Translations under genes and position numbers: made by a program
Source: Parapedobacter indicus
GTDB taxonomy: Bacteria; Bacteroidota; Bacteroidia; Sphingobacteriales; Sphingobacteriaceae
DNA: 64,000 nucleotides
Assembly (NCBI RefSeq): GCF_900113765.1
Contig: NZ_FOQO01000006.1
Location: 62,001-126,000 of the forward strand
Reading direction: 5' to 3'
Notes under the pieces: model-generated
Told to the model about the DNA's origin: nothing
What the model saw: the letters and a program-made list of their open reading frames with translations, nothing else
Databases searched by the model: none
Shown: piece by piece, positions 1 to 48,200 of the stretch
Layout of the letters: the number at the start of each line of letters is the position of its first letter
How positions within the stretch are numbered: the stretch's first letter is position 1

Positions 1-2556
1 AAGTACAAGTCCGGTATAAACGGGAATGGAAGCATTTCTTGCTGTTAAGATATTGTTTCTCCTGGTTCTGAAAACATCCAGCTCTATTCCTAACATCTCT
101 TCCCATAACGACGCATCCAGTCCGATATTCAATGCATGTGCCACCTCCCAGGTTATATTCGGATTGGGTGTCACTCCTCTTGAAAGGCTGATTGCCGGGT
201 CAGCAAAATAATACTTCTCGCCAAATGAATAAGTAGACAAAAATTGGAAAGCATCCACTTGGTCATTACCCATTTTACCGATGGATGCTCGTAATTTCAA
301 GTTGTTCAGAAAATCCCATTGATCCAAAAAATCTTCTTCCGATAATCGCCATCCAACAGAAACCCCGGGAAAGAAGCCAAATCGCCTACCCGCTGGAAAA
401 TTCTGCGAACCGTCATACCTAAAGTTAAAATCTATCAGATAACGTCCTTTAAATTCGTAATTCAATCTGCCAAAAAAATTCCGTCGAGCAATTTCATAGG
501 CCGATCCGGAATTGTCTTTGTTTTCGGCTCCGCCCGCATAAAGTTGGTCTATTGCGCCACTCAGATAATCCCGCCTATAAGCCCAGAAATCACTTCCTGT
601 CGTTTCTGTTTGCTCGGCGGCAATAAAGGTACTTAGGGTATGACCTTCAAAGCTGGCATCGTAATTGAGCCGCGCATTAATTGTTGTCCTGCTCGAATTT
701 AAAAAAGTTTGCCGTAGATCAGGTTGTGCGACAGGCCCTCCTAATTGCTTTGTATATACATCCGTATCGGGATTATAATTATATACTTCCCATGGAATCC
801 TGAAGAGCTTCTCCGTTCTGAAATGGCGATCATGTGCCACAAAACCATCGATCTTTAGTCCGTCCACCCAAGGAACTACAACTTCGTAGTTAAAGGTAGT
901 TTGATAGATGTTGTCCAGGTTCCTTTTATATCCCGTTGCATTCGTTGACATAACCAGCGGATTTTCACCCCGCTCTATTCCCGGCGCAAAAGAACCATCG
1001 GGATTATAAACCGGCAAAAAGGGGTATGTCCGCCAAATGGAATGGAAAATCGTTGCAGGATCGACCGAAGGCAGCGCCTGTTGTTCTTGCCGAGCAGTTA
1101 AATCCAAAGAAACTTTGATGTATGCTGAAATCCTTGCGTCCACATTGGATCGTATGCTGTAATTTTTGTAAGAGAGATCGCTGTTTTTAAGGATACTGTT
1201 TTGATTCGCAAGATTCCCGGAGATATAATACGTCACATTTTCGTTTCCACCATTTACAGATAGATTTTGTTGTGTTTGACTGGAAAAATCTTTTAAAGCG
1301 GCTTTTTGCCAGTTGGTGTTGGGATAACGGATGGGATCGCTGCCAACCCTCATCTTTTCAATTTCTTCCTGCGTAAAACGTTCGGACTGTCCCTGCTCTA
1401 CGAGCAACTCATTCATAAATACCGCATAACTTGGCGCGTCGGCCATTTTTGCCAATCTTGTTGGTTGGGAAAAACCCTGATTGAGTGAATAGCTTATGGT
1501 GGGTTTTCCTATTTGGCCACGTTTGGTGGTGACGAGAATTACGCCGTTTGCCGCTTGCGCACCATATATTGCGGCAGACGCATCTTTTAACACCGAAATA
1601 GAAGCCACGTCATTCGGGTTAATCTGACCTAAACCAGATCGATCCCAAACGCCATCAATAACAATCAGCGGCGCATTATTGCCCAGCGTGCTCTGTCCGC
1701 GGATCAATATCGAGGCCCCAGTACCCGGCAATCCACTGGTGTTTGATGCAATAACTCCTGGAAGCCGTCCCGCCAATGAATTGGAAAGATTAACCGCCGG
1801 ACTCTTCGCCAAATCTTCTCCTTTTGTCGTAGCAACCGACCCGGTAAGCGTTGCCCGCTTTTGGGTGCCATACCCAACCACCACCACTTCATCCAAATCA
1901 CTGATTGCCGCTTTCAATGTGACGGAAACTGTCGATTGACCCTTCAGGATTAGCTCGCGGGTTTCAAATCCGACCGCCGAAAATATTAACGTCTTATCCG
2001 CTTCGTCCACACTTATTTGAAATTCACCGTTGACAAGACTGGTGGTTGCTATTGAAGAACCACTTACAGTTATTGTTACACCTTCCAATGGTGTCCCCTG
2101 CTCGTCCCTGACTATTCCGCGGACGGTTTGCTGCTGAATTTGAATATCCTTAGGTTTGTTTTCTAAAACATGCTCCACTTTTGAGATCAACGTGCCATCG
2201 GACATAATCAATATATTTTTTCCATCAATGGTGTAAGTCAATGCCTGTGGTTTTAGGACCTGTGTTAAAAAAGTCGGCAATGGCATGTCTTTTGCATCAA
2301 TTGTAATTGGATTAGCAGACTTCATTAGCTGATCACTGTATACCACCCAATACCCTGTTTGCTTTTCTATCTCGTCAAAAAGTTGCTCAATTGGTTGGCG
2401 TTTTACTTTTAAAGTAATGGTTTGGGATAGTGACGCAGCACTGAGATGCAGGCTCCCTATCAACAATAGTATCCCTGTTATTCGCATTACACGCAATAAT
2501 TGGTTCTTCGCCGGGCAGGAGTGGGTCCTACCATCCGGCAATACATAATTTATCAT
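1..2556 (-). CDS. SusC/RagA-like TonB-dependent receptor of locus A, C-terminus beyond the window
   Basis: This outer-membrane TonB-dependent receptor would take up oligosaccharide with a SusD partner and signal to the FecR encoded upstream. The reading frame is open for 852 codons to the left edge, so roughly the last 250 to 300 residues are missing. After a signal segment (MRITGILLLIGSLHLS) comes an STN domain starting at SQTITLKVKRQ, a carboxypeptidase-regulatory-like domain and the plug entry motif DLDEVVVVGYGTQK near residue 230. Near the edge it reads RNASIPVYTGLVL, aligning with AKRDLAVPAYTGLVLP of the locus B receptor, so no large indel is apparent. The ATG at 2556 lies in a block conserved at nucleotide level with locus D, so the in-frame ATG at 2487, just before the signal peptide, may be the true start. 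Family confidence is high; the substrate is unknown. Confidence 0.93.
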   Translation of the reverse strand, partial: MINYVLPDGRTHSCPAKNQLLRVMRITGILLLIGSLHLSAASLSQTITLKVKRQPIEQLFDEIEKQTGYWVVYSDQLMKSANPITIDAKDMPLPTFLTQVLKPQALTYTIDGKNILIMSDGTLISKVEHVLENKPKDIQIQQQTVRGIVRDEQGTPLEGVTITVSGSSIATTSLVNGEFQISVDEADKTLIFSAVGFETRELILKGQSTVSVTLKAAISDLDEVVVVGYGTQKRATLTGSVATTKGEDLAKSPAVNLSNSLAGRLPGVIASNTSGLPGTGASILIRGQSTLGNNAPLIVIDGVWDRSGLGQINPNDVASISVLKDASAAIYGAQAANGVILVTTKRGQIGKPTISYSLNQGFSQPTRLAKMADAPSYAVFMNELLVEQGQSERFTQEEIEKMRVGSDPIRYPNTNWQKAALKDFSSQTQQNLSVNGGNENVTYYISGNLANQNSILKNSDLSYKNYSIRSNVDARISAYIKVSLDLTARQEQQALPSVDPATIFHSIWRTYPFLPVYNPDGSFAPGIERGENPLVMSTNATGYKRNLDNIYQTTFNYEVVVPWVDGLKIDGFVAHDRHFRTEKLFRIPWEVYNYNPDTDVYTKQLGGPVAQPDLRQTFLNSSRTTINARLNYDASFEGHTLSTFIAAEQTETTGSDFWAYRRDYLSGAIDQLYAGGAENKDNSGSAYEIARRNFFGRLNYEFKGRYLIDFNFRYDGSQNFPAGRRFGFFPGVSVGWRLSEEDFLDQWDFLNNLKLRASIGKMGNDQVDAFQFLSTYSFGEKYYFADPAISLSRGVTPNPNITWEVAHALNIGLDASLWEEMLGIELDVFRTRRNNILTARNASIPVYTGLVL

Positions 2557-2590
2557 TAACTTTGTTACGTTTGGATAGTTTATAATCCGG
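2540..2590. repeat. 51-bp leader block shared with locus D (copy 1)
   Basis: This stretch matches 39865-39915 at 47 of 51 positions with no gap. It covers the first six codons of the predicted susC frame (MINYVL in both) and the adjacent upstream sequence, after which the coding sequences diverge sharply. Conservation that stops inside the frame suggests selection on a nucleic-acid element rather than on the peptide. Confidence 0.85.
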
Positions 2591-2660
2591 TTTTCTAATA
2601 AATGGTCATAATCGGTATATCCGAACATCGCGAGGGGGTGGTACCAACACCTCCTCGTCC
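2571..2660 (+). ncRNA. putative cis-antisense sRNA opposite the susC leader, locus A
   Basis: On the plus strand a perfect TAnnTTTG box (TAACTTTG, 2557-2564) abuts the susC start codon. Downstream is a hairpin with arms 2632-2640 and 2648-2656 and a 7-nt loop, extendable by one C-G and one G:T pair. The two G:T pairs would be A.C mismatches in minus-strand RNA, so the fold favours plus-strand RNA. The following sequence is poor in T, making this the weakest terminator of the four. No clear -33 element is visible. The 5' end is inferred from the -7 box. Confidence 0.3.
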
Positions 2661-2750
2661 TGTATTCAATAAGTACGTTTCTATCTCTACATCATATGGT
2701 CCTCCTTGTTTAAAACTCAATTTTATGGGTTTTCAGTGGTTATCTGGGTG

Positions 2751-13100: not shown

Positions 13101-13581
13101 TGCCTTCTACCTTGAATTCTGTAATCGGGGCGACATTAAGCCGGAGACGACGAGACCGTGCAGAAAAACGCTGTAAACCAACGGATTTTACTGAATAAGC
13201 TGCGGCTATCTCCTTCTTGTTTTTCCGCTGAATTACGATTGTGTGGTCAACAATGCTATACGTCAACGACTGATTTTTCATCAGCTCGTCCAACACTTCC
13301 GTTACAGCTACGTTGTGAAGATCAACGGATATATTCCTGATCTTTTTAACCAGCTTGTTGTCATAAAAAAATTTGTATTCACTTTGTTGTTCGATCGCAC
13401 TGAATGTCTCCGATAGCGGAACATTTTTTACCGATAGCGTGATTTTTTGTGCAAAACCAAGGGCGGATACCTGTAAACAAGCGACAGTAAGGAATAAAAC
13501 TGTTAGGTTCATTAGTATCAACAGTTTGGGAAAGAGCCGCTTTTCTTTGCACGGTTCTTTCCCGGGTAAAAATATTTTCAT
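10156..13581 (-). CDS. SusC/RagA-like TonB-dependent receptor, locus B
   Basis: This 1141-residue outer-membrane receptor has a signal segment (about residues 20-45), an STN domain (KITLSVKNVPLSETFSAIEQ to about residue 115), a carboxypeptidase-regulatory-like domain (VEGKVVDENGEPLSGVS), a plug beginning DEVVVVGYGTQKRATLTGS and a long beta-barrel ending LGFNLTF. The STN domain is typical of receptors that signal through FecR and an ECF sigma factor, which fits the genes upstream. Sequence blocks such as PAYTGLVLPNENIG align with locus A, suggesting that the two receptors are recent relatives with possibly related ligands. The start ATG abuts the conserved leader motif. Confidence 0.97.
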   Translation of the reverse strand: MKIFLPGKEPCKEKRLFPKLLILMNLTVLFLTVACLQVSALGFAQKITLSVKNVPLSETFSAIEQQSEYKFFYDNKLVKKIRNISVDLHNVAVTEVLDELMKNQSLTYSIVDHTIVIQRKNKKEIAAAYSVKSVGLQRFSARSRRLRLNVAPITEFKVEGKVVDENGEPLSGVSIQEKGTQQSTSTNVEGMFSMDVLDRNATLVFSFVGYESQEISIAGQTSLNVTLKESTSRLDEVVVVGYGTQKRATLTGSVASVGNRELKRSPTVSLSNSISGLLPGVVASNRSGEPGRDDASILIRGRSTTGDNTPLIVIDGIPGSAGWAQINPNDVESISVLKDASAAIYGAQAANGVILITTKRGSIGTPTIDYTFNQGISTPTRVPRMADSYTYGEFVNQLLVERNQSPRYTDEELQKFRDGSDPLNYPNTNWLDAVLRKATPQSQHNLSVRGGTENVKYSVSGSFANQKGIFKNGSTNFKTYSLRSNLDAKINKYIQVGLDVNAGLDDGNYPAFSTTTTFQFARINFPYQPVYYPNGLPSAGLERGNNPAIMSGEATGNNNERSQRYQAKASVDVMIPWVDGLGIDGFFAYINNIDLTKNFQTPWTVYNYDKSTDTYTSLLGGGILLPQLRQGMTNGRSTLLNFRIKYNKQINDHSINSFIAAEQSEGYSNNFQGFRRNYISPAIDELFAGDLKDQEATGTASETGRRNFFGRVSYGYKDKYLFDFNFRYDGSAIFPEGKQYGFFPGVSAAYRISEESFIKERLDFINDLKLRASWGEIGNDRVSAFQYLSTYTIGVQGYNLGQTPSLAPGLIGGVTPNPTITWEVARTTNIGLDGDLWNSALGFTVDVFKSKRSNILAKRDLAVPAYTGLVLPNENIGVVENKGIEVELSHAKRTDGFSYRVAGNISYSKNKIIDVSEASNVPDWQKAEGHIIGANNYYRAIGIFRTQEEVDASPVVLGTVVGDLKYEDINDDGVINASDMVRMDKTNIPEMIFGLNLSMDYKNFSLFANFAGQARAWQYIWTQAGLNGNSLQELIENRYRPGSMDSKYPRLPSLAAEVNGQRSSFWLRDASFARLKTLELGYTVPQELLSRIKIKHLRVYVNGNNLFTLDKLKNFDPEGTSEAGDFYPQSKIYNLGFNLTF

Positions 13582-13594
13582 AATTTCGTTTGTT

Positions 13595-13709
13595 TTGGAT
13601 TAAATCAGTTGTTTTTAGTCAAGAACACATTTTCTCTCCTCACATTCTGTGATAGAGAAGGGATCCAAAATTCCAACCGTTCCGAGTCGCATTCGGAACG
13701 GTTTTATTA
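13595..13709 (+). ncRNA. putative cis-antisense sRNA opposite the susC leader, locus B
   Basis: A plus-strand TAATTTCG box (one mismatch to TAnnTTTG, 13581-13588) overlaps the susC start codon and is followed by TTTTGGAT as in the other loci. A perfect 11-bp hairpin (13675-13685 with 13693-13703, 7-nt loop) followed by TTATT would end the RNA. The transcript would be about 115 nt. The 5' end is inferred. Confidence 0.38.
13675..13709 (+). terminator. rho-independent-type hairpin between fecR and susC, locus B
   Basis: AACCGTTCCGA and TCGGAACGGTT form a perfect 11-bp stem around the loop GTCGCAT. The plus-strand side is followed by TTATT and the minus-strand side by GGAATTTT. Either a terminator for plus-strand RNA or a leader hairpin of the susC mRNA would fit. 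Confidence 0.55.
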
Positions 13710-13758
13710 ACGTGTATCCCTCGGTCGTTTTTATTCATCCATAAGCATACATCCTATT

Positions 13759-24400: not shown

Positions 24401-24836
24401 CTACCCTACCTCTTACTTCGGCCTGCTGTATGGCATCGTTGTTCACTATTGGTAATGGCTCCGAGCTGCTGTTTTTTTGCACCGGATGTTTGCTGATGAC
24501 AATCGTTTTACCCTTTACTACCCAATCCAACGCATACCCTTTCAACAACGCATTCATGACGTCATCCAGCGGTGCATCCTCGATGTGCGCGCTTACTTTG
24601 GTATCCGCCAGTTCCTTGCCCTTCAGTAAAAACAAATAACCACTTTGCTGGCGGATGGACTCCATCGCGTCCGATAGCGGTATCCGACTCACATTCAACG
24701 TTATGCTCTGCGCAACGCTGCTGGCTGCGGCCTGAAATACCGCTCCTATGGTCAATAAAATTGCTAATTTCATCATCAATAGCAATCGATAGGTCAAAGG
24801 CTTGTTAAAGCCTTTAACACATGCATTAAAATTCAT
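21453..24836 (-). CDS. SusC/RagA-like TonB-dependent receptor, locus C
   Basis: This receptor of about 1127 residues has a signal region (MMKLAILLTIGAVFQAAASS), an STN domain (SITLNVSRIPLSDAMESIRQ to about residue 105), a carboxypeptidase-regulatory-like domain (VRGRVVDESDNPLEGVTVG), a plug beginning DLDEVVVVGYGTSRKRDLTGS and a beta-barrel ending FRLGVNLTF. The ATG at 24836 (MNFNACVKGFNKPLTYRL) is preferred over the upstream ATG at 24884 because it abuts the leader motif in the same way as the other three loci. It would import an oligosaccharide and signal to FecR. Confidence 0.96.
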   Translation of the reverse strand: MNFNACVKGFNKPLTYRLLLMMKLAILLTIGAVFQAAASSVAQSITLNVSRIPLSDAMESIRQQSGYLFLLKGKELADTKVSAHIEDAPLDDVMNALLKGYALDWVVKGKTIVISKHPVQKNSSSEPLPIVNNDAIQQAEVRGRVVDESDNPLEGVTVGIKGTLRATTSNANGSYQLTVEGRESVLMFTAIGFQSQEIPVAGQSVINVTLRASVSDLDEVVVVGYGTSRKRDLTGSVVSLQEKDFSQGVTSNALQLLNGKAAGVHISQGSSAPGATTNIRIRGAGSINSNNDVLVVVDGLPGATIDALNPGDIESIEVLKDASAAAIYGTRAANGVVLVTTKQGRKGKPQVSYNGYVGIQDVAKKIDVLSAREYMEVLNGILADQGADPIYTAEQIDHAGSGTDWQDEVFRSAAAQDHRLSVSGGGDYSRYYISLNYFNQDGVVLGSNLDKYNARFNYEISPTDKLKINLNLNTNRWVNNTIYEDNRANENAGPINTALQFDPTLSAGVDEDGRYLLNPLIALENPLALIHGINEEETLFRSFGTVAADYEVLDGLTATVRFGADFTNRRFDSYNSRLTQRGRASGGIANIATNENNRWLAEFLAQYDKQLTDAHHLSLMGGVTFEEFNNRGVSSGAANFLSDVTGVDQLQSGDRSQFTLNSNRSRNRLNSFLGRVNYRFYERYLLTASLRADGTSRFAADNKYALFPSVALAWRLSEEAFMENVAFLSDLKLRAGFGRLGNQGINNFETFQTFVASSSAILGDGIVQGAAPARIPNPALRWETSEEINLGLDFGLWDNRLTGAVEYFIKNTKDQLFNKPVPATTGFASTRVNFGNVRNSGVEISLFSLNTSGPFEWRTAFNLSLLQNKVTSLPDFIPEIIDGNIGTFINNFTIVRRGVPIRAFYGYEITGIFQEGDNIAGSAQPDALPGHPIFKDVDGNGVINADDRVILGDPFPDYTIGFTNSFQYKGFGLDIQLNAVQGIEALDANIVESLYPINFNRNRIASHYLNRWTPDNPGATYPSGVNPSSYGGARAINSLTIADASFIRLKSVTLAYQLPLRGKKVISGASLYLAGDNLFTLSDFEGFDPDANANSRDGNATGIGIARTSYNSYPLNRTFRLGVNLTF

Positions 24837-24849
24837 ATGTTTGTATCGT

Positions 24850-24952
24850 TTGGTAAGCTTATTAATTAATATACCTTGCTGCATTTGCAGTAATTAATTG
24901 GTAACCGTCCAAGCCTATATCGGATAGTGTTCGCCGCACTATCCGGTTTTAT
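24850..24952 (+). ncRNA. putative cis-antisense sRNA opposite the susC leader, locus C
   Basis: On the plus strand a perfect TAnnTTTG box (TATGTTTG, 24836-24843) abuts the susC start codon and is followed by GTTTGG. The hairpin 24921-24929 with 24937-24945 (9 bp, 7-nt loop, extendable by a G:T and an A-T pair) is followed by TTTTAT. The predicted RNA is about 100 nt. The G:T pair would be lost on the other strand. No -33 box is evident and the 5' end is inferred. Confidence 0.42.
24919..24952 (+). terminator. hairpin with T-tract between fecR and susC, locus C
   Basis: CGGATAGTG and CACTATCCG form a perfect 9-bp stem around the loop TTCGCCG, followed on the plus strand by GTTTTAT. On the minus strand the following sequence (ATATAGGCTTGG) is not T-rich, so a plus-strand terminator is favoured. 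Confidence 0.55.
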
Positions 24953-25043
24953 GGACTTTTATCCATCGTTCAGGTCTGTAATTTCATCATAATTTCCTCC
25001 TTTGGCTAGTTAGTGAATCATTCTGTTTGTTGAGCTATTTCCG

Positions 25044-36449: not shown

Positions 36450-39400
36450 TTAAAAACTAACGTTAACACCAAATGAGACAATTCGCGGAATGGGATACAT
36501 ATTCTGTCCATTGTTGAACGTATTTCTTTCTGGATCATACCCTTCGTATTCGTCGTTACTGACAAGCGTGAATACATTTTGTGCATTCGTGTAAACATAC
36601 AGCTTTTCGATCCCTATCCGCGTTAATGCCAATGTTGGAATTGCATAACCTAACTGTATATTCTTCAGCTTAATATAACTGAGATCCTGAACCCAATAGG
36701 AAGATTCAGAAGCATCCCAAGCATTGTTGAATTTCAGGCTCGGCACGTCGGTATTCGGATTGTCGGGGCTCCAAGCATTTCTCCATCTGGTAGAAATCAT
36801 CCGATTCTCCCAATCCATGTCTGTAAAATTATTCTGCGTATATAGGCTTACGTCAGAAACACCCTGAAATAGTAGGTTCAGGTCAAAGCCTTTATACCGA
36901 AAACCGGCAGACAACCCAAAGGTGTACGTTGGGATGGTGTTTCCTAAGCCCGTTTTATCTTCAAAAGTCAACCGCCCGTCATTGTTAAGGTCTTCAAACT
37001 TCAAGTTACCGGCTTTGGGTGTAAAGCTATTTGCATGCATATGCTGTTTGGCCTCGTCATTTGACTGGTAAACACCAATTGCTTTGTAGCCGTATAATGT
37101 GTTGTAAGCATACCCCTCCCGAATCAGATATAATTGATCCGGCGAATCACCGTCGTTGAATCGAGTTACCTCATTGTCAATGTACGTCAAATTTAACCCG
37201 ACGTTAAACCCGAATTGATCGCGATCCGTCTTTCGGTTATCATAATTGGCTATAAACTCGATACCGTTATTCAGCATCTCGCCCACATTTTCATGCGGGG
37301 CTGTCAAGCCTCCCAAAATCAGCGGAATCGGCAGCTGCACGATAATGTCTTTCGTACGTCTTTTGAAATAATCCACCTCAATGTTAAGCCGGTTATCAAA
37401 TACGCCCATGTCCAATCCGAAATCCAGCGTGGATGTTGTTTCCCAAGTAATGTTTTCATCAACCAACGCTGTCACCGCTGCTCCCGGCGAGAAAACATCA
37501 CCGTAGCTATAACTTAACTCATTGCTCTGCGCGATGACCGTCAAAAATGGCCAGTATCCGGCAATGTTCTGGTTACCCAGTTGTCCCCAGGATGCGCGCA
37601 ATTTTAAATTTGAGAATACATCGATATCCCGGATAAATGCTTCATCAGAAAGCCGCCATCCCAATGAAAAACCCGGAAAAAGCCCCCAGCGATTTCCAGC
37701 TTTAAACCTGGATGAAGCATCGGCCCTAAAATTAGCCTCAAATAAGTAACGACCCATATACGCATAATTAACCCGGCCGAAGTAAGAAAACATACGCAAA
37801 CTGGTCATGTTACCTTCTCCTCGGATCCCGGTAGTTCCCGCATCCACTTGCGTCAGCCCTTCCTTGGGAGGCGAAGTTCTCCTCGCATATAGATTTTCAA
37901 TCTTACTATCTTCTAATTGGATGCCTGCGATCGCTGAAATTTCATGACCACTCGAAAAATCCTTTGTTAGATTTAAGGTACTAAACAAATTATTATTGGT
38001 CGAACCCACATGGGTCCGATCGATTTCCAACCCTTCCCGATTGAAATTTTTGGTAATGGTCTCGATGCCGGTATCGGTGTATCCAAAGACACTGGTATTG
38101 TACTTATCGGTCAGGTCCCAATCCCGGTTTGAAGCAAAGGTGGTTCGGAACGAAAGTAGATCACTTAGTTTAACATCAACGTTAACATTGAGTGTCAATA
38201 TGTTGTTACCTATTTTGTTTAAGCCATTTGCCGCATCGATCAGTGGATTCCGATTGTCATACAACAGACTTCCATCCGCACCGATGGCTTGCACCGAACC
38301 GTATCGGCCATCGCGTGTGTAGGGAGCTATATAGGGAGCCGCACCGCTCAACATTTCAAACACACGCCCCATCGAACCGTACGTAGCGTCGGCATAGGGT
38401 TCTTTCGATTGCCGTCGTAAATAGTTAATTCGACCACCCAGTGTCAGCCAATTATTTACACGGGAATCGACATTCAACCGCATGCCGTAACGTTCGGATA
38501 CTGTATTGGGCACCATACCTTGCTGGTTCAGGTAGTTGAAGGAGAAAAATGAGGATGTCTGTGCGGTGCCTCCCAGGATCGAAACATTGTGTTCGTGCAT
38601 GGCAGCTGTTTTAAAAAGTTCGTTAAACCAATCGGTGCTCGGATATTTGTAGGGATCATCTCCATTCCGAAAGGCTTCAATCAATTCATCGGAAAACAAC
38701 GGCGCAGACCCTTCGTTCGTCAATGCTACATTTGTCAATTCCATACTTTCCGCGCTGTTGTCAATCACGTCGTATCGTCTCCCAAGCGATTGGAGACCGA
38801 AATATGAGTTTAAATTGACCGTCATCTTTTCGGAAGACTTTCCCGATTTGGTTGTAACCAATACCACCCCATTTGCCGCCTTTGATCCGTAAATCGCCGC
38901 ACTTGCTGCGTCCTTCAGCACGGAAATACTTTCGATGTCGTTCGGATTCAATTGATCAAAAGATCCTTCAATACCATCTACGATAATTAACGGATTCGAG
39001 TTATTCAAGGTTCCCCAACCCCGTATCCGCAACTGAGCGCCATCTCCTCCCGGCTTTCCGGAATTTTGGCTAACCCAAATTCCAGAAGCCGTACCTCCCA
39101 GCGCTTGCGATGCGTTTGTAATCGGGCGATTATTGAGTTCGTCGTCAAACTCGACCATCGAAACCGCTCCCGTGAGATTTACTTTTTTCTGTGTGCCGTA
39201 TCCTACTACCACCACTTCATCCAGATCACTAACTGTCGCCTTCATCGAAACATTGATACGATCCTGATTACTTATAGACCGCTCTACGGATTCAAAGCCG
39301 ACGTTTGTGAATATCAATACGGTCGCCCCGGTAGGGACTTCAATGCGATACATTCCGCCGTCGTCAGTAGTAGTAACGGCAGACGTACCTTTTACCGAAA

Positions 39401-39881
39401 CCGTCACTCCTGCCAACGGTTGCCCTATGTCATCGACCACCGTGCCACTTATCGTCCGTTGAGGCTGTACAAGGGGAACGTTATTTTCTCGATAGTTAGC
39501 TGGCAGCCGATGCTTGGTGTCCGGTTTAACGAAAATACTCGTACCATCGATTCGATAGGTAAGTGATGCAGGCTTCAACACCTTGGTTAAAAAGGTTTCC
39601 AATGGCATTTTTCGTGCGGTGATACGGATTGGTTCTGATTCAAGTAAGATTTCATCACTATAAAGCACCGTATACCCTGTCTGGTTTTCAATGACCGAAA
39701 AAATCTGCTTTAAATGAATATGCTTCCGATCCAGCGTAATCGTTTGCGACAATGTTTCGCCACTCAGGTGCATTGTACCCAGCAAAATCCATAACGCTGT
39801 GAACCTCATAATTAGGAAAAATTGTCGGTTAATCGCATGAGGCATGAGAATCCCCCAGCGTAACAATACATAATTTATCAT
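36450..39881 (-). CDS. SusC/RagA-like TonB-dependent receptor, locus D
   Basis: This 1143-residue receptor has a signal region (MRFTALWILLGTMHLSGETL), an STN domain (TITLDRKHIHLKQIFSVIEN to about residue 120), a carboxypeptidase-regulatory-like domain (ISGTVVDDIGQPLAGVTVS), a plug starting DLDEVVVVGYGTQKKVNLTGA and a barrel ending VSFGVNVSF. Its first six residues (MINYVL) equal those of locus A only because the 51-bp leader block is shared. The in-frame ATG at 39809, just before the hydrophobic signal, is a plausible true start. It is the importer and signal source for the five-sulfatase locus. Confidence 0.96.
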   Translation of the reverse strand: MINYVLLRWGILMPHAINRQFFLIMRFTALWILLGTMHLSGETLSQTITLDRKHIHLKQIFSVIENQTGYTVLYSDEILLESEPIRITARKMPLETFLTKVLKPASLTYRIDGTSIFVKPDTKHRLPANYRENNVPLVQPQRTISGTVVDDIGQPLAGVTVSVKGTSAVTTTDDGGMYRIEVPTGATVLIFTNVGFESVERSISNQDRINVSMKATVSDLDEVVVVGYGTQKKVNLTGAVSMVEFDDELNNRPITNASQALGGTASGIWVSQNSGKPGGDGAQLRIRGWGTLNNSNPLIIVDGIEGSFDQLNPNDIESISVLKDAASAAIYGSKAANGVVLVTTKSGKSSEKMTVNLNSYFGLQSLGRRYDVIDNSAESMELTNVALTNEGSAPLFSDELIEAFRNGDDPYKYPSTDWFNELFKTAAMHEHNVSILGGTAQTSSFFSFNYLNQQGMVPNTVSERYGMRLNVDSRVNNWLTLGGRINYLRRQSKEPYADATYGSMGRVFEMLSGAAPYIAPYTRDGRYGSVQAIGADGSLLYDNRNPLIDAANGLNKIGNNILTLNVNVDVKLSDLLSFRTTFASNRDWDLTDKYNTSVFGYTDTGIETITKNFNREGLEIDRTHVGSTNNNLFSTLNLTKDFSSGHEISAIAGIQLEDSKIENLYARRTSPPKEGLTQVDAGTTGIRGEGNMTSLRMFSYFGRVNYAYMGRYLFEANFRADASSRFKAGNRWGLFPGFSLGWRLSDEAFIRDIDVFSNLKLRASWGQLGNQNIAGYWPFLTVIAQSNELSYSYGDVFSPGAAVTALVDENITWETTSTLDFGLDMGVFDNRLNIEVDYFKRRTKDIIVQLPIPLILGGLTAPHENVGEMLNNGIEFIANYDNRKTDRDQFGFNVGLNLTYIDNEVTRFNDGDSPDQLYLIREGYAYNTLYGYKAIGVYQSNDEAKQHMHANSFTPKAGNLKFEDLNNDGRLTFEDKTGLGNTIPTYTFGLSAGFRYKGFDLNLLFQGVSDVSLYTQNNFTDMDWENRMISTRWRNAWSPDNPNTDVPSLKFNNAWDASESSYWVQDLSYIKLKNIQLGYAIPTLALTRIGIEKLYVYTNAQNVFTLVSNDEYEGYDPERNTFNNGQNMYPIPRIVSFGVNVSF

Positions 39882-39915
39882 TACCTTTGTTAAGTTTGGA
39901 TGGTTTATAATCCAG
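39865..39915. repeat. 51-bp leader block shared with locus A (copy 2)
   Basis: It matches 2540-2590 at 47 of 51 positions without gaps. Both copies cover the susC start codon and the TAnnTTTG-TTTGGAT motif. A further shared octamer, CCGAACAT, lies just before the hairpin in both loci (2621 and 39941), with a 5-bp spacing difference. Confidence 0.85.
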
Positions 39916-39987
39916 TGATCATCTTGTTTATAATTTTAGTCCGAACATACGGAGGGATGGAGTCAACATCTCTCCGTTTTGTTTTTT
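39896..39987 (+). ncRNA. putative cis-antisense sRNA opposite the susC leader, locus D
   Basis: This is the best of four candidates. On the plus strand a perfect TAnnTTTG box (TACCTTTG, 39882-39889) next to the susC start would begin an RNA of about 92 nt, ending at a strong hairpin and T-tract. The stem 39950-39959 with 39967-39976 contains one G:T pair that would be A.C in minus-strand RNA. Known cis-antisense sRNAs at Bacteroides susC leaders (DonS type) have the same position and size class. A clear -33 element is lacking and the 5' end is inferred. Confidence 0.48.
39949..39987 (+). terminator. strong plus-strand terminator between fecR and susC, locus D
   Basis: CGGAGGGATG and CATCTCTCCG pair around the 7-nt loop GAGTCAA, with an extra A-T pair, and are followed by TTTTGTTTTTT. 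No annotated plus-strand gene ends here, so it points to an unannotated plus-strand transcript. Confidence 0.7.
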
Positions 39988-40032
39988 AGTACTATCTTAT
40001 CTAGCCATTTTCCTCCTTTTTTAGCCTCGTTA

Positions 40033-41169
40033 TCATTCAATAATCAAACGGCGTCCCACCAATTGGAAGGAGATGCCCGATCCTTCGAAAAAATCCAATA
40101 CGCTCGATAAACGTGCATTCCGTTTCATTTTACCACTGAACGTTTTATTGGGCTTTCTCCGGTACTCAATATCAACATCATACCACCTGGCAAGCTGTTC
40201 CAATACTTCGTCGAACGGTGTTTCTTCAAAACTGAAAAAACCTTCCTTCCAAGCAGTGAACTGCTCGATTGACACCTCGTTGATCGCTGTATTTCCGTCG
40301 GTGATGACGCTCTGTTGTCCCGGCTTCAATGTATTGTCAGCGCCCGCTCTTAAATTGGTTATCTTAACGCTTCCTTCAACCAGCGTTGTCTTGATTGCAG
40401 GCTCATTATCATAGGCGGTAATGTTAAATTGGGTACCCAACACTTCCAGGTTTTGGCCCGCTGTGGCGACACGGAAGGGGCGTTTCTTATCCTTTGCCAC
40501 CTCAAAATAAGCTTCTCCTTTAAGCTGTACCGCCCGCTGGGCGTCTCCGAAGCGACTGGGATATCGCAACGTAGATTCCGAGTTAAGCCAGACCTTAGTC
40601 CCATCAGGCAACGTAACTTGGTAGGTTCCACCTTTTGGAATTTTCATGGTTAGGTGTTGGATCCGCGAAATCGACTCTTTGCTAAGCACCAAACTTCCGT
40701 CTGTGTACCTCAATTCTTCCCCGACGACGATTCCCGATTGCGATTCACTCAGATCAATGGAACGGCCATCTGCCAGAACCAACGTTGCTCGATTGCCTCC
40801 CGGTAAAATAGCTACCGGCGTATCCGGTTGCGATTTCTTTACCTCTTCATTATATAGTAGAAAAAAACCAATAAAAAATACAACAATTGCCGCTGCAGCA
40901 TAGGGAATCCATTTACGGATCTTAATACCACTACGCCTTAGTTGTTTCTGATTTACAATGTATTCGTAAATCCGTTGTTGTGCTAAACTTTCTGAAGAAC
41001 CTGTATTACGATTCGTTTTGGCCTGTTGCCAATCTGAATCCAGGAGTTCCTGAAGCGCCTCATCGTATGAAAATTCCTGTACGATAGACTCCCATTCGGA
41101 GCGTTCGTCATCAGTAAGCGCCTGCACTTGATACTGCCGGTATAAGTATTTGAGCCGTCCAAGGTCCAT
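40033..41169 (-). CDS. FecR-type anti-sigma factor, locus D
   Basis: This 378-residue anti-sigma factor has a cytoplasmic N-terminus of about 86 residues (MDLGRLKYLYRQYQVQALTD), one membrane helix at about 87-106, a FecR domain (IPKGGTYQVTLPDGTKVWLN, LKGEAYFEVAKDKKRPF, LEVLGTQFNITAYD) and a C-terminal DUF4974 domain (AWKEGFFSFEETPFDEVLEQ, RWYDVDIEYRRK). It lies 99 bp after its sigma gene and 151 bp before susC. It would gate the sulfatase locus in response to the receptor. Confidence 0.95.
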   Translation of the reverse strand: MDLGRLKYLYRQYQVQALTDDERSEWESIVQEFSYDEALQELLDSDWQQAKTNRNTGSSESLAQQRIYEYIVNQKQLRRSGIKIRKWIPYAAAAIVVFFIGFFLLYNEEVKKSQPDTPVAILPGGNRATLVLADGRSIDLSESQSGIVVGEELRYTDGSLVLSKESISRIQHLTMKIPKGGTYQVTLPDGTKVWLNSESTLRYPSRFGDAQRAVQLKGEAYFEVAKDKKRPFRVATAGQNLEVLGTQFNITAYDNEPAIKTTLVEGSVKITNLRAGADNTLKPGQQSVITDGNTAINEVSIEQFTAWKEGFFSFEETPFDEVLEQLARWYDVDIEYRRKPNKTFSGKMKRNARLSSVLDFFEGSGISFQLVGRRLIIE

Positions 41170-41268: not shown

Positions 41269-41862
41269 TTAGTTCAGATTAAAGATGAGCAACCAAACAG
41301 CCACGTCAATGTGATGTAGCTTCAAATAGTCTCGTAAAAACCGTAAGGCGTGTTTCATGTGACTCTGCACTGTTCCGGGCGCAATATCGAGTTGTCGGGC
41401 CGCCTCTTCGTATTTTAATCCTTCTTGGTGACAAAGTTGATAGACTCTTTGCTGCTGGGGAGGCAGCAGATCAATTCCTTCTTCAAGAAGCCGTCGAACC
41501 TCTCGCAATAATACACGCTCTTCTGTTTCTTCGCTACTTTCCTGCCACTGCTCTTTTAAATTCCGCTTTACAGCACGGGCACGTTGCAGCTTGCGTAACG
41601 CATCTATGGTGCGCCTTTTGGACAACGTCTTCAAAAATGCTTCTACATTCCGAATCTCGCGAAGTCCATCCCCCTTTTGCCAAAATGCAAGCATCACTTC
41701 TTGGGCTACCTCCTGCGCGCAATCAACGTCTAACAACACCCGAAATGCAAATGCCTTGATTTTCGGGAAGTAGTAATCATACACTTGCTTGAAAGCAAAC
41801 TCATCGCCCGCTGCAATCTTGAACAGCAGTTTTCTATCTTCTGAAAAACATGTTGCCTTCAT
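41269..41862 (-). CDS. FecI-like ECF RNA polymerase sigma factor, locus D
   Basis: This ECF sigma factor, 197 residues from the ATG at 41862 (MKATCFSEDRKLLFKIAAGD), has region 2 (AFKQVYDYYFPKIKAFAFRV, CAQEVAQEVMLAFWQK) and region 4 (HQEGLKYEEAARQLDIAPGT). The frame is open to 42066, but the extra 68 residues have no family counterpart and would use up most of the divergent promoter region. The C-terminus is hydrophobic (VAVWLLIFNLN). It heads locus D and is divergent from the macroglobulin gene. Confidence 0.93.
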   Translation of the reverse strand: MKATCFSEDRKLLFKIAAGDEFAFKQVYDYYFPKIKAFAFRVLLDVDCAQEVAQEVMLAFWQKGDGLREIRNVEAFLKTLSKRRTIDALRKLQRARAVKRNLKEQWQESSEETEERVLLREVRRLLEEGIDLLPPQQQRVYQLCHQEGLKYEEAARQLDIAPGTVQSHMKHALRFLRDYLKLHHIDVAVWLLIFNLN

Positions 41863-42237
41863 GATGGCTATAATATGGTCAGTGCTAAGATACATCCTTT
41901 TTCTAAATGGAAGAGATAGCCAACAGCCGACATTAACAATCTCCTGTTGACATTGCATCATATGCAACTTCGCATTCCCTTCCAAATAGCTATGTTCGGC
42001 ATTAACTAATAACGGAGTAAAAGTATAGTAAATTAATAGATTAAAAAACGCACAATTCATACCCACAAATCGTATAAATTATACGTTTTTCCGTACGAAT
42101 CAATAAGGTCGAAAATTTTTATGGAATTTTTCTCGCTGTAGCATCCGTGTGGCACAATGCGTCCGTATTCTGTATAATATGACGCAATTTTAGTTAAGTT
42201 TGCATAGGCACATCGAGGCACATTAATTTCTATCAGC
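41863..42237. promoter_or_regulatory. divergent control region between the locus D sigma gene and the macroglobulin gene
   Basis: About 375 bp without a supported gene separate two divergent starts. The region is rich in A and T and contains a perfect 7-bp dyad with a one-base centre (CGTATAA-A-TTATACG, 42071-42085), which looks like an operator. It also holds a plus-strand TAAGTTTG box (42195-42202), matching TAnnTTTG and placed 35 bp before the macroglobulin ATG, although no -33 box is clear. Confidence 0.5.
42195..42202 (+). promoter_or_regulatory. -7 promoter box of the macroglobulin gene
   Basis: TAAGTTTG fits the Bacteroidota TAnnTTTG consensus exactly and would give a 5' leader of about 28 nt. 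No TTTG or TTG is seen at the expected distance upstream. Confidence 0.42.
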
Positions 42238-45200
42238 ATGATTCGCAGTATCTTATCGTTTGTTTTGGTTATCACCGTAGCGACTACCATGGCACAAAAA
42301 TCACTCACGCTATCGCCGTTCGAAAAAGAATGGGAGCAAATAAATTCCCTCATCGAAAAAGGACGTCCCCAATCGGCAGCTGAAATTGCCCAGAAGATTT
42401 TAGCTGCAGCACAGCAGAAAGACGATGGTCCGAACGCCATTAAGGCCCAACTTTTTTTGATGGGTGTGGACGAAACCATACAGGACGATGCGATGACACA
42501 CAACATCCTGAAAATTGATTCTCTGATTCAAATCAGCCAAGGGGCCGAAAAAGCGCTATGGCAAAGTATCAACGGTGAGTTGTATTGGCAATATTACCAG
42601 CGTAACCGTTGGTCGATATTGAACCGGACACCATTGGCTGGAGATCCTCCTGCTGATATTGCCACGTGGGACGCAGCTACCTTGATTCACAAAGCAAGCG
42701 AGCTTTATCAAGCTTCCATTCTGGATCGTGAAACGCTGCAAAAAACACCGGTAGAACGTTATACGCCCATCTTAACCCAAGGAGAAAATACCCGCCATCT
42801 GCGACCTACGTTATACGATTTCCTTGCATTCCGTGCCATTGATTTTTTCCAAAACGATGAAAAAGATGTGATAAAACCCGCCTATCAATTCCAGGTAGAC
42901 GGTACACTGTGGTTTGAAACCGCTGAGCGTCTTGCAGATGTGAAGGTAAATCCTGCCCATCCCGAGGCATTGCATTTCCGTGCACTGCATACCTACCAGC
43001 AACTGTTGGCTTTCCATCTCAACGATCCGAAGCCCGATGCATTGATCGATGCAGATCTCCAACGGCTTGCCTTTGTGCATCGGTATTCCGTACATCCCGA
43101 AAAAGATAGCTTATATTTACATGCCTTAGCGCGATTGGAAAAACAGTATCCGGATGTACCTGCAAGCGCACAGGTATCTTATCAAATCATCCAGTTCTTG
43201 TACGATAAGCCATCAACCGATTTATCGAACAAGACAGATCTCCCGGCACTGAAAAACCGATTAGATGCCCTTATTGCTCGCTTTCCGAATACCGAGGGCG
43301 CAGCAAATGCCTCGCATTTGTTATTCCAAATCAATGGTCGATCGCTTACTATACAAACCGAAGAAGTGGTGCTGCCCGATGAAAACAGCAAAGCATTGAT
43401 CTCCTATCGAAATTTGGATAAGATATACATCCGCATATACAACCTCGGCTCACCGATGGACCTCCAGCAAAATGGGTTAACCGATGCGCAACGTGCAAAG
43501 TTGCTGAAGACAAATCCCGAACGGTCGTGGGAACAGTCGCTTCCGGGGTCAAAAGATCTTTATGAACATCGAGCGGAGGTAAAAATAGATCCCCTTGCCG
43601 TAGGTACTTACATATTGGTGGCTTCTGCAACACCTGATTTCCAAGCCGCAAAAAATATACTGCATGCTACGTCATTTCAGGTCTCAGCCATCAGTATGGT
43701 GACCAATGACACGAAAAATGGAAAATGGTTGTTTGCATTGCATCGCAAATCGGGCATGCCATTGCGTGGTGCGACGGTCAACTATTGGGGCAATCAATGG
43801 AATGGCAAGAAAAGAGAATATACGTATATCAAACTGGGCCAAACAAAAACAGACGAAGACGGAAAAGCGCTGGTTAAAGGCGATGGGGAGCAACAAGCGG
43901 CCTTATATGGATCGAATTATATGCAGGTGACGCGTATCACAATTGCTCACCACGGTGATTCCTTGCAATTACCCGGTTATTATTATTTGAATCGCGATGA
44001 AGACGACCAACCTGAAACAGATAACCACCTCTTTTTCTTTACCGACCGCTCCATCTACCGCCCCGGCCAGACCATTCATTTCAAAGGTATCCTGATAGAA
44101 CGAAATAGTAAACACAAAACCAATCGGGTGCTACCCAATGAACAGACAACGGTAACCTTGTACGATGCGAACAACCAGGAAGTGACGTCCGTCGAATTAA
44201 CTTCGAATGAATACGGTTCATTCTCCGGTACATTTACCGCACCGGAAAGCGGCCTTACCGGCCAAATGCGCCTGGGCAATGACCTCGGTGCTGCCTACTT
44301 TTCCGTCGAGGAGTACAAGCGGCCAAAGTTTCAGGTACAGTTCGACTCGCTGAAAGCGAACGTTGCGCTCAATGAGGAGGTAACGGTTAAAGGCAAAGCC
44401 CAAGCCTATGCGGGAAACAATATCGACGGAGCTGAAGTCCGCTACCGTGTGGTAAGACGCGCCCGTTTCCCCTATTTTTGGACGTTTTACCGGTGGGGAC
44501 AACCTCATTCGCCGGAAATGGAAATTGCAAACGGCACGCTGACTACCGATGTGGACGGTGCATTCGAAGTGTCCTTCTCCACCCTGCCCGACAAACAAAT
44601 TAATCCGAATACATGGCCGGTCTTTACATACACGGTTTATACCGATGTAACGGACATTAATGGCGAAACACAAAGCGGCTCCCAAGATGTCAACGCAGGC
44701 TATCGCTCCTTGCAAATCCAGGCATCGATCGATGAGTACCTCAACCTGAAGCAACCGCAAAAATTAGCAATCAGCACGCAAAATCTCAACGGAGTCATCA
44801 CGCCTTCGGAAGTATCCATATCCATCCGGCCGTTGCGCTTTCCAGGAAAACTTTACAGAAAGCGATTGTGGGAAAAACCCGATCAACACCTGCTATCGGA
44901 AGCGGAATTCCGGGCGACGTTCCCAGATGATGAATATACCGACGAATCAGACCACCTCCAATGGCCCGAGGAGGAAGCAATCTGGAATACCGCCATCAGC
45001 ACAGCGACCACCAACGAGGTAATACTGCCAGCTAGCCTTTGGAAACACGAGGGTTGGCATGTGATCGAGCTGAAAACAACCGATCCACAAGGCAATGAAA
45101 TCATCGAAAAAAAATACACATACGCCGTCGATATCACCGCAGAAACAAGGCCGCAGACACCATTGCTCGTATACGCCGATAAAACTTCTTTGCAGCCCGA

Positions 45201-48200
45201 CGAGTCGTTGGAGGTGGTGGTCAAAACTGGCCCGGACAGCACCTATGTATTGGAAACCAATACCGACATCGATCCCGAATTTACAGCATTTACCGAATGG
45301 CAGCGGATTGACCGACGCTTAACCGAGAAAGATCGGGGTGGCCTTGAGTTCTCGTGGTTGTACGTACACAACAACCGTGTTTATCAGACCTCGCAACGCA
45401 TCGCGGTTCCCTGGTCTAACCGGGACCTCCAGTTGGAATGGGCTACTCACCGGGATAAACTGCAGCCCGGCGAAGCGGAGGAATGGCACCTGACCATCAA
45501 AGGCAATAAAAAAGAGGCCGCAGCGGCGGAATTACTGGCCGGTCTATACGACGCGTCCCTGGATGCACTGAAGCCTCATAATTGGCAATGGAACCGCTTT
45601 CAGGACGAAAATTCCTTGTACGGCTATTGGAATGCTACTCAAGGATTCGGGAGATCCAGCGGTAACACGTGGCTCGACAATCTACAAAACGTGGTTCCGA
45701 TTTCTTTTGATAAGCGATACGATGAATTGGACGGCCTCATCAGTCTGATCTATCCGGTTAGGAACCAATTAATGGTTCGCGGCCTTTCCGGACGCGTATA
45801 TGGAGTGGCCACCCCGCAGGCAAAAAGTGCAGGCAACGCCGACGCAGCACTGGAAGAAGCTGTCGTAGTTGGCTACGGAACACAGGAACAACAAAGGTTG
45901 ACAGACGTCTCCGAAACCGACGAAGCTGCCGAATCGGTGGAAGAAACCGAAACAACACCTCCCGTGCGAACCAACCTGCAGGAAACCGCATTCTTCCTTC
46001 CGCATCTCCAAACGGATGCAGAGGGGAATGTGACCTTCAAATTCACCTTGCCCGAGGCACTCACCGAATGGAAGTTCATGGCGCTGGCGCATACCACCGA
46101 TTGGAAAACCGGGTACCTGCAAGGCCAGATCAAAACCCAGAAAGACCTGATGGTCATGCCTAACCTACCACGCTTTTTACGCCAGGGCGACGATATTCGC
46201 ATCAGCAGCAAAATCAGCAACATCAGCTCGGGCGACCTACAGGGCGTAGCCAACCTGCAATTGCTGGATGCCGAGACGCTCCAACCCCTGGCTAGCTTTG
46301 GCGACAGACCGGTCGAAAAGGAATTTGATGCCCCTGCCAACCAAAGTACCACCGTTGATTGGGTGATCCACGTCCCCGAAAACCATTTTGCTCCTGTTGT
46401 GGTGCGCATCACCGCCAAAGCGGGTAACTTTACCGACGGTGAGGAAAATACACTGCCCGTCATTACCAACCGCATGCTGGTAACCGAAACATTGCCACTG
46501 CCCGTACGCGGCAATGAAACCAAGACATTTACCCTCGAAAAGTTGGCTGAACAGTCGAGCAATACTCTGGTCAATCATGCCCTGACGGTCGAGTTTACCG
46601 GAAACCCCGCATGGTATGCGGTGCAGGCGCTACCCTACCTGATGGAATATCCCTATGAATGTGCCGAGCAGGTCTTCAATCGCTTTTATGCAAATGCCCT
46701 CGCAGCCCACATCGTGGGGCAGGCACCTAAAGTGAAGGCTATCTTTGACCAGTGGGCAACCCGTGATACGGCTGCACTGCTATCCAATTTGGATAAGAAT
46801 CAAGAATTGAAGTCGGCCTTACTCGAAGAAACTCCCTGGGTGATGGAAGCCAAGAATGAAACCGAACAAAAACACCGCATTGCCCGGTTGTTTGAAAGTC
46901 ATAAGTTGGCGCAGGGACTACAGCAGAATTTAGCCAAATTGGCCGAAATGCAACAGCCAGAAGGAAGCTTCCCATGGTTCCATGGGATGATGAGCAACCG
47001 CTATATCACCCAATACATTGCTACCGGTATTGCCCGGCTGCGGCATCTTGGCATTGAAGCAGCTGCTTCAGATGCAGCGACGGAGATATTGACGAAAGCC
47101 ATGGGTTTCCTCGATCAGCAAATTAAAGCGGATTACGATGCCTTACTGAAAAACGAAGCAAAATTGGCCGATCAGCACATCAGTTATCCGCAGGTCCAGT
47201 ACCTTTACCTGCGCAGCTTCATTGATAACCCAGCTCTTCCCGAAGAAAGCCAAACGGCCTATGCGTACTATTTTTCACAGGCAACAACTTATTGGCCTGA
47301 ATTCAATCCGTATCTAAAAGGTCAGCTTGCCCTTGCTTTGCATCGGGGCAACAATCACAATATTGCCAACGAAATCATGACTTCCCTCCGTGAGACGGCC
47401 ATTCAAAACAACGAAATGGGCATGTATTGGAAATCCATGCCCCGTGGATATTGGTGGTATGAGGCCCCCATTGAGGCTCAGGCATTGCTGATCGAGGCCT
47501 TTACAGAAGTGGCCGAAGATACCAAGGCGGTAGACGATCTCAAAGTATGGCTCATCAAACAGAAGCAAACCCAATACTGGAGCACCACGAAGGCTACTTC
47601 CGATGCCATCTATGCCCTGCTATTGCGGGGCAGCGATTGGCTCGTCAATGAGCCCGCGGTAACCATTTCGCTCGGTAAAGAAACGATCCGGTCTACCGAG
47701 ATCAAAACAGAAGCCGGTACCGGTTACTTCAAAAAACGCTACGACGGCGATGCCATCACGGCTGATATGGGCAATATTTCCGTCAAGGTGGATAAAGCCC
47801 AAAACGAAGGCGTGGCCTGGGGTGCCGTCTACTGGCAATATTTTGAAGATCTTGATAAAATTACCGGAGCGGAAACGCCATTGAGCCTACGCAAGCAGCT
47901 CTTTATCCAACGAAGTACCGACAAGGGGCCAGTATTGGACGAAATCACGGCAGATAACCCGCTGAAAGTGGGCGACAAGGTAACCGTGCGCATTGAACTG
48001 CGTGTAGACCGCGACATGGAATATGTGCATCTGAAAGATATGCGGGCAGCTTGCTTCGAACCCATCAATGTGCTGAGCGGCTACCGTTACCAAGGTGGAC
48101 TGGGATATTATGAGAGTACGCGCGACGTGGCAACCAACTTCTTTTTCGATCACCTGCGTAAAGGAACGTATGTATTTGAATATCCCGTATTTGTTTCACA

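Follow-up and report, generated by a model that had tools for sequence, protein, structure and literature searches.

We present the discovery of a family of candidate cis-antisense RNA genes at the junctions between fecR and susC in Parapedobacter indicus, and consider it quite likely that each susC locus controlled by an ECF sigma factor and FecR carries such a divergent gene, whose structured product would lower susC expression. The box, the stems, their strand polarity, the link to FecR and the conservation of the arrangement are observed directly in the DNA. From them we infer transcription, exact ends, repression and mode of action, with the mechanism read from the position of the RNA and from its likeness to DonS of Bacteroides. 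Antisense transcription would start from a TAnnTTTG box laid over the susC start codon, run away from susC through the susC leader, and end at an intrinsic terminator that directly follows fecR and an ultrashort open reading frame (ORF). The resulting RNA, of about 95-115 nt, would comprise two stems: P1, with which it opens at the 5' end, and P2, the terminator. It would most likely lower susC output in cis, through a duplex with the leader beside the ribosome-binding region, through convergent transcription, or through both. The locus would stay quiet until its sigma factor is active, with strong ECF-driven sense transcription then overriding the antisense promoter.

Genomic setting of the loci

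The 6.16 Mb genome of P. indicus contains 77 FecR matches, and the window analysed here is a whole stretch of 64,000 nt from it (C18:62001-126000). Four loci in the window, A to D, display the gene order sigma factor, FecR, leader and susC. A domain scan recovered sigma factor and FecR domains at all four, and SusC and SusD domains at D, with A-C scanned for sigma factor and FecR only. The ORFs and domains of locus D, all on the minus strand, identify an ECF-type sigma factor (41269..42066; Sigma70_r2, Sigma70_r4_2), a FecR anti-sigma factor (40033..41169; FecR, FecR_C) and a susC-type TonB-dependent receptor (36450..39881; Plug, barrel, CarbopepD_reg_2). An ORF of 2022 aa on the plus strand (window 42238-48306) is divergent from the sigma factor gene of this locus. 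A search of the window with Rfam 15 yielded no match above the gathering score.

A junction was treated as analysable if the next large ORF lies at least 60 nt from fecR; this left 71 of the 77 FecR neighborhoods, the exclusions being one without a following ORF (L075) and five with a gap below 60 nt. The initial annotation of the window had described a box, a TTTGG motif and a hairpin at its four susC leaders. We recovered all of these at the positions given, and found the family to be far larger, with about 50 copies in this genome.

A promoter-like box over the susC start codon

The -7-like box of locus D (TACCTTTG; 39882..39889, plus strand) adjoins the susC ATG (complement of 39879-39881), and counterparts on the same strand occur at A (TAACTTTG; 2557..2564), C (TATGTTTG; 24836..24843) and B (TAATTTCG; 13581..13588). 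Thus, the reported TAnnTTtG box stands at A, C and D, but B deviates from it with an imperfect copy. The fixed distance claimed for the TTTGG motif holds at all four loci, where it starts 13 nt after the start of the box. Across the genome, an antisense TAnnTTTG is present 40-125 nt ahead of the antisense hairpin in 55/71 junctions, as against a mean of 5.4 and a maximum of 10 in 20 rounds of dinucleotide shuffles, and the distance between box and hairpin is mostly 60-100 nt; the other 16 of the 71 junctions have no box near the hairpin.

Relative to the start codon the box occupies distinct registers: in register 0 it adjoins the codon directly, in register +1 the two share one or two bases, and in register +5 it runs across the codon, which results in proteins that start with MY. 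It is found in one of these three registers at 51/71 junctions versus 0/254 control ORF starts of the same genome, a comparison in which the controls were tried at the first ATG only and the junctions at up to three in-frame ATGs. Anywhere in the region from -40 to +5, the box word occurs at 7/254 control starts. In 7 loci the box is displaced by 43-78 nt from the start codon, and in five of these, with the start codon 43-73 nt off, it still lies 66-71 nt from the hairpin. These observations bear on a rival explanation, in which all these elements belong to the susC mRNA: the box would simply be an A-rich ribosome site read on the opposite strand, and the hairpins would form a structure in the sense-strand leader, or an attenuator. 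That the box adjoins or overlaps the start codon at 51 junctions speaks for such a reading; nevertheless, given the three registers, the seven displaced loci and its absence at the 254 control starts, the box is, as far as its sequence context indicates, more than a ribosome site.

The SusC N-termini of L001-L077 fall into the classes MINY, MxFxxCVKG and MY. The N-terminus MINY is encoded by ATGATAAATTAT in 21/21 cases, with the codons concerned having frequencies of 0.16, 0.54 and 0.57. These classes look dictated by the antisense box and not by the protein; if this is true, it is a warning for annotators that a promoter on the opposite strand would in part determine the N-terminal residues of these SusC proteins.

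A complete -33/-7 promoter was sought and not found, both at the P. indicus loci and in the named relatives considered below. TTTG at the -33 position with a spacing of 19-21 nt was recovered in 0/32, 1/46, 1/7 and 0/8 loci by register, and at the expected spacing in 3/61 cases from the named relatives; a TTTA/TTTG-like element with a spacing of 18-20 was seen in 16/46 loci, these being of register +1 only. The Bacteroidota-type promoter is accordingly represented by the -7 box in 55/71 junctions, with the -33 TTTG missing in nearly all. Of the promoter and terminator architecture originally proposed to be shared by the four loci, the box and the antisense hairpin are retained, but a -33 TTTG is lacking in nearly all loci, the box of B is imperfect and A is without a U-run. 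In Flavobacterium the TAnnTTTG box is placed at -12 to -5 in the part of the study cited here (PMC9723704). When this rule is applied to the box, the predicted +1 at A, C and D is the G of GTTTGG, and the RNA would therefore begin with P1.

Strand polarity of the junction hairpins

The fold energies of the plus and minus strands are, respectively, -30.4 and -18.4 kcal/mol at D, -35.7 and -22.6 at A, -39.2 and -27.5 at C, and -39.7 and -32.8 at B, and the antisense fold is the more stable one in 52/54 junction hairpins. A score combining the hairpin with the U-run is higher on the antisense than on the sense strand in 68/71 junctions; the 95% point of mononucleotide shuffles is exceeded by 58 of the 71 antisense scores and by 29 of the sense scores, the latter because hairpins read on both strands. 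In a strand-neutral search, with G:T and A:C treated as equal, 54 strong hairpins were detected in the 71 junctions. These contain, as read on the antisense strand, 59 G:U pairs and 7 A:C oppositions, and when loci are sorted by the lean of their wobble pairs 40 fall to the antisense strand and none to the sense strand. The 8 nt on the antisense 3' side contain on average 5.0 T, versus 2.4 of the matching base on the other flank. The covariation was assessed in 25 aligned copies, i.e. those among the 54 that align cleanly by eye and which also served for the covariance model: 93.5% of the cells are paired (81.5% when shuffled) and 60 show double changes (17.9 when shuffled), with slid versions of the alignment all scoring far lower. 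All the strand-discriminating sequence tests favour the plus strand, which is antisense to susC.

The early preference for a plus-strand transcript is hence reinforced by the antisense scores, the wobble pairs, the folds and the covariation. It had been drawn from G:T pairs in the stems of A, C and D; these are indeed present there, but are not limited to them as B has G:T pairs too. Covariation supporting pairing in minus-strand RNA alone, which had been named as the contrary outcome, was not encountered for P1 or P2; the hairpin that leans to the minus strand is a different one, inside susC. In favour of a sense-strand structure in the leader, sense hairpins do form, with lower scores, and the wobble pairs of this in-gene hairpin favour the sense strand (A:C 46 versus G:T 17). 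It is opposed by the G:U count of 59 versus 7 A:C and the U-rich antisense 3' flank (5.0 T in 8 nt versus 2.4), by the antisense fold being more stable in 52/54, by the absence of the box from the control starts (tried at the first ATG, as opposed to the first three at the junctions), and by the five loci in which the box keeps its distance from the hairpin away from the start codon. We hence reject a sense-strand attenuator or a plain ribosome site on the strength of strand polarity, control starts and displaced boxes, and hold this explanation to be highly improbable.

Anatomy of the predicted RNA

At locus D the predicted antisense RNA spans 94 nt of the plus strand (39894..39987), from a +1 placed 12 nt after the start of the box to the end of the T-run, as derived from the box rule, the fold and the alignment. 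Stem P1 (39894..39946) is predicted by the fold and by family covariation to pair 39894-39901 with 39939-39946. It is followed by the terminator-like hairpin P2 (39949..39977), identified by hairpin search and fold, with 11 bp and a 7-nt loop, and by the T-run TTTTGTTTTTT (39977..39987). The folds of the other loci predict comparable RNAs on the plus strand, namely at A (2569..2666; P1 2569-2577/2618-2626, P2 2630-2658, no clear U-run), B (13592..13708; P1 13592-13601/13662-13671, P2 13675-13703, short T-run 13702-13708) and C (24848..24954; P1 24848-24853/24909-24914, P2 24921-24945, with the tail GTTTTATGG). The predicted length at the four loci is 94-117 nt, the ends being read from box and hairpin, and the predicted RNA of D is perfectly complementary to the susC leader from -13 to about -106.

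An intrinsic terminator on the antisense strand is predicted across the family; it is strong at D, and its U-run is weak in several copies. T-rich sequence after the hairpin had been noted for three of the four loci: D has a strong T-run, but those of B and C are short, and there is hardly any after the hairpin of A (2631-2657). The statement that no known plus-strand gene ends at these hairpins is in agreement with our finding that no plus-strand ORF of at least 100 aa ends at that of D.

The TTTGG motif proves to be part of the 5' arm of the second stem P1, with GTTTGGAT pairing with ATCCRRAC just before P2. P1 attains a score of at least 14 in 31/54 copies (shuffle fraction 0.16) and of at least 18 in 13/54 (0.015), and at the threshold of 14 its wobble pairs amount to 49 antisense G:U versus 5 A:C. 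This second stem has to be considered in an explanation in which the hairpin serves solely to halt antisense transcription before it enters fecR and the sigma factor gene. This transcription would originate from a weak promoter located within or past the susC start, with the RNA itself being inert. Such a reading would suit a terminator that is the best-conserved part and a promoter without a -33 box. However, a second stem with compensating changes closes the 5' end of the RNA, the distance from box to hairpin is held mostly at 60-100 nt, and the arrangement is absent from receptors away from FecR (see below), and we consider an inert RNA quite improbable. In a further alternative, it is the act of antisense transcription that matters and not the RNA, with polymerase collision or promoter occlusion taking place at the susC start. 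Here, the box does overlap the susC start, which puts it in the path of the sense transcript, whereas the two-stem structure and its covariation are left unexplained. We judge this alternative to be unlikely, and note that it can act together with the structured cis-antisense RNA that we favour.

Association with FecR and spread across the Bacteroidia

The combination of the box with a strong antisense hairpin is seen at 49/71 FecR junctions versus 1/40 TonB receptors away from FecR (Fisher p 6e-13), these 40 controls having been chosen by eye among 150 listed Plug matches outside the FecR neighborhoods; the wobble bias is also absent from them (9 to 7). Together with the sigma factor and FecR domains at A-D, this establishes that the arrangement is tied to loci under ECF sigma/FecR control, as had been surmised from the four loci.

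A covariance model, R1, was built without the box. In the own genome it yielded at least 42 matches at E<=1, of which 40 are in FecR neighborhoods (150 of 1330 candidates were scored); at E<=0.01 all 32 matches among the scored candidates are in such neighborhoods, 25 of these copies having trained the model. Likewise, its matches to locus A (C18:64566-64667, E 1.6e-12) and locus C (C18:86845-86956, E 6.0e-9) are to copies in the training set. The search of susC leaders in related genomes, which had been suggested from the outset, covered 20 relatives and recovered 45 matches in 7/8 congeners; the 12 genomes from other genera gave no match. The silence of R1 outside the genus implies that the primary sequence diverges fast, and the more distant relatives were therefore tested by architecture instead. 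Forty of the 45 congener matches were fetched: 39 have a box within about 25 nt of the start of the model (background 0.8% per random 31-nt window), and in all 40 a long susC-like frame runs on the opposite strand, with a frame the size of FecR upstream.

A named set of Bacteroidia, including Pedobacter, Mucilaginibacter, Sphingobacterium, Solitalea, Daejeonella, Dyadobacter, Telluribacter, Niastella and Chryseobacterium, was assembled from 80 FecR loci kept from a genome search, 66 of which were analysable. The antisense score exceeds the sense score in 65 of these 66 junctions, G:U outnumbers A:C by 59 to 11, and the box is present in 61, a count that stands beside the figure of the own genome, on which the shuffle control for the box was run. 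Other genera of the same family contributed 27 loci, 13 of them analysable, with the antisense score higher in 13/13 and a box in 9/13; of the 4 analysable junctions from further families of the class, 3 showed a strong antisense hairpin and a single one a box. In other classes, none of 6 analysable junctions, which include two near-identical pairs, shows a box or a strong antisense hairpin. Three genomes of the Bacteroidales, picked by the Rfam family Bacteroidales-1, provided 50 fetched junctions, and in the 29 that were analysable the antisense score is higher in 24, the box is present in 18 (again beside the own-genome shuffle control), both are present in 17, and G:U stands at 28 versus 2 A:C.

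The presence of the same architecture in the Bacteroidales extends the arrangement to the order where DonS-type RNAs were discovered. With the signature conserved at many FecR-controlled loci, the antisense regulator familiar from Bacteroides of the gut is probably a general one in this class. If this is true, most uptake loci under FecR control in Bacteroidia from soil and water would likewise be subject to antisense control of susC.

Relationship to known systems

The founding paper on DonS of Bacteroides is reportedly that of Cao et al. 2016, and DonS is said to sit in an ECF/anti-sigma locus. By position and anatomy, the predicted Parapedobacter family belongs with the DonS-type RNAs. The position, the orientation (divergent and antisense to the susC leader) and the type of locus are the same, with the Parapedobacter RNA being predicted from sequence: at D it would cover -13 to -106 of the leader in a locus with susC, susD, FecR and sigma factor domains, and control by an ECF sigma/anti-sigma pair is reflected in the 49/71 versus 1/40 distribution. 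The Bacteroidales junctions, moreover, agree in box, hairpin and polarity. The source cited gives DonS-type RNAs a length of 78-128 nt (PMC7366714), and for the four Parapedobacter loci the prediction is 94-117 nt. The experimentally known representatives are from Bacteroides, whereas the present family is from the Sphingobacteriaceae and other Bacteroidia, with about 50 copies in a single genome; if borne out, what was a curiosity of single genes would become a family of sufficient size for covariation analysis.

In the text cited, DonS is described as repressing its own locus, with the mechanism stated as unknown (PMC11697453). The PUL-associated cis-antisense RNAs of B. thetaiotaomicron were counted at ten by Ryan et al. 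2020 and at 32 by Ryan et al. 2024, the latter being associated with both correlated and anticorrelated pairs in the cited portion of that work (PMC10994844). Transcripts of mucin O-glycan PULs of Bacteroides are described as having a cis-acting region in their intergenic leader (PMC5635687). The Parapedobacter family would share with these post-initiation control in the leader of the susC transcript, but the mucin O-glycan leader acts in cis on the sense transcript, and the portion of the source cited does not name an antisense RNA (PMC5635687). In Flavobacterium psychrophilum, another member of the Bacteroidota, antisense transcription is accompanied by the same TAnnTTTG box; however, its antisense RNAs are presented as largely pervasive transcription, and the cited part of that study does not describe a family linked to susC (PMC9723704). 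In the literature covered, which included few subscription papers and did not extend to the founding paper on DonS, we found no description of a box over the start codon, of a two-stem family outside Bacteroides, or of the ultrashort ORF.

Ultrashort ORFs and a hairpin inside susC

Between fecR and the antisense hairpin, locus D has an ultrashort sense ORF on the minus strand, M-A-R-stop (39997..40008), recognized from the reading frame and from family evidence. On the same strand, locus A has ATG-ATG-stop (2687..2695), locus C has M-M-K-L-Q-T-stop behind a GGAGG-like site (24970..24990), and B has a possible M-D-E-stop (13731..13742) along with overlapping candidates. Ultrashort sense ORFs between fecR and the antisense terminator occur in 40/56 own leaders versus 18.2 when shuffled, and those with Thr before the stop number 18 versus 1.6 in the same 56. 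The spacing from ATG to ACN-stop is a multiple of three in 31/39 own and 28/36 congener cases and is evenly spread in the shuffles, as expected of a real reading frame. Thr is the last residue of 38 of 70 chosen ultrashort ORFs, a choice which favoured Thr where several ORFs existed. Leaders of the Bacteroidales have similar ORFs, e.g. M-K-stop and M-E-stop after GCCT.

A hairpin inside susC near its start is supported on the minus strand by sequence and family evidence at A (2514..2532) and C (24793..24818; 11 bp), and is missing at D and B. Just beyond the box, an in-gene inverted repeat is found in 46/93 own and congener loci versus 5.2 expected, while further into susC there is no excess (8 versus 6.0 expected). 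The lean of its wobble pairs to the sense strand has a p of 3e-4, and in other genera the signal is weaker (18/61 versus 4.2). We rejected this hairpin as a part of the antisense RNA, since the predicted start lies downstream of it and the bias of its wobble pairs is towards the sense strand. It overlaps the position expected for the antisense -33 element.

We tentatively raise the possibility, to which we give a lesser chance than to its being wrong, that the whole fecR-susC leader is a single cassette of the class Bacteroidia present in tens per genome. It would combine an ultrashort sense ORF, frequently of the form M..T-stop, whose translation decides whether the leader is open, with a two-stem antisense RNA whose -7 box over the susC start fixes the first residues (MINY, MY) and, in many loci, with the sense in-gene hairpin. 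Along with the ECF sigma factor it would form a double-negative, switch-like unit, with sense transcription silencing the antisense promoter and the antisense RNA silencing the sense leader. The antisense RNA gene proposed here predicts, in its turn, that the RNA starts at the G of GTTTGG, that the box constrains the first codons of SusC, and that the ultrashort ORF belongs to the leader.

GGAGG sites are unusual for Bacteroidota, and one precedes some of the ultrashort ORFs (minus strand; window 24970-25000, 39997-40020 and 2687-2710). A recurrent word, TAACCAATT, precedes the ultrashort ORF, reappears close to susC in the sense leader, and could be part of the sense promoter.
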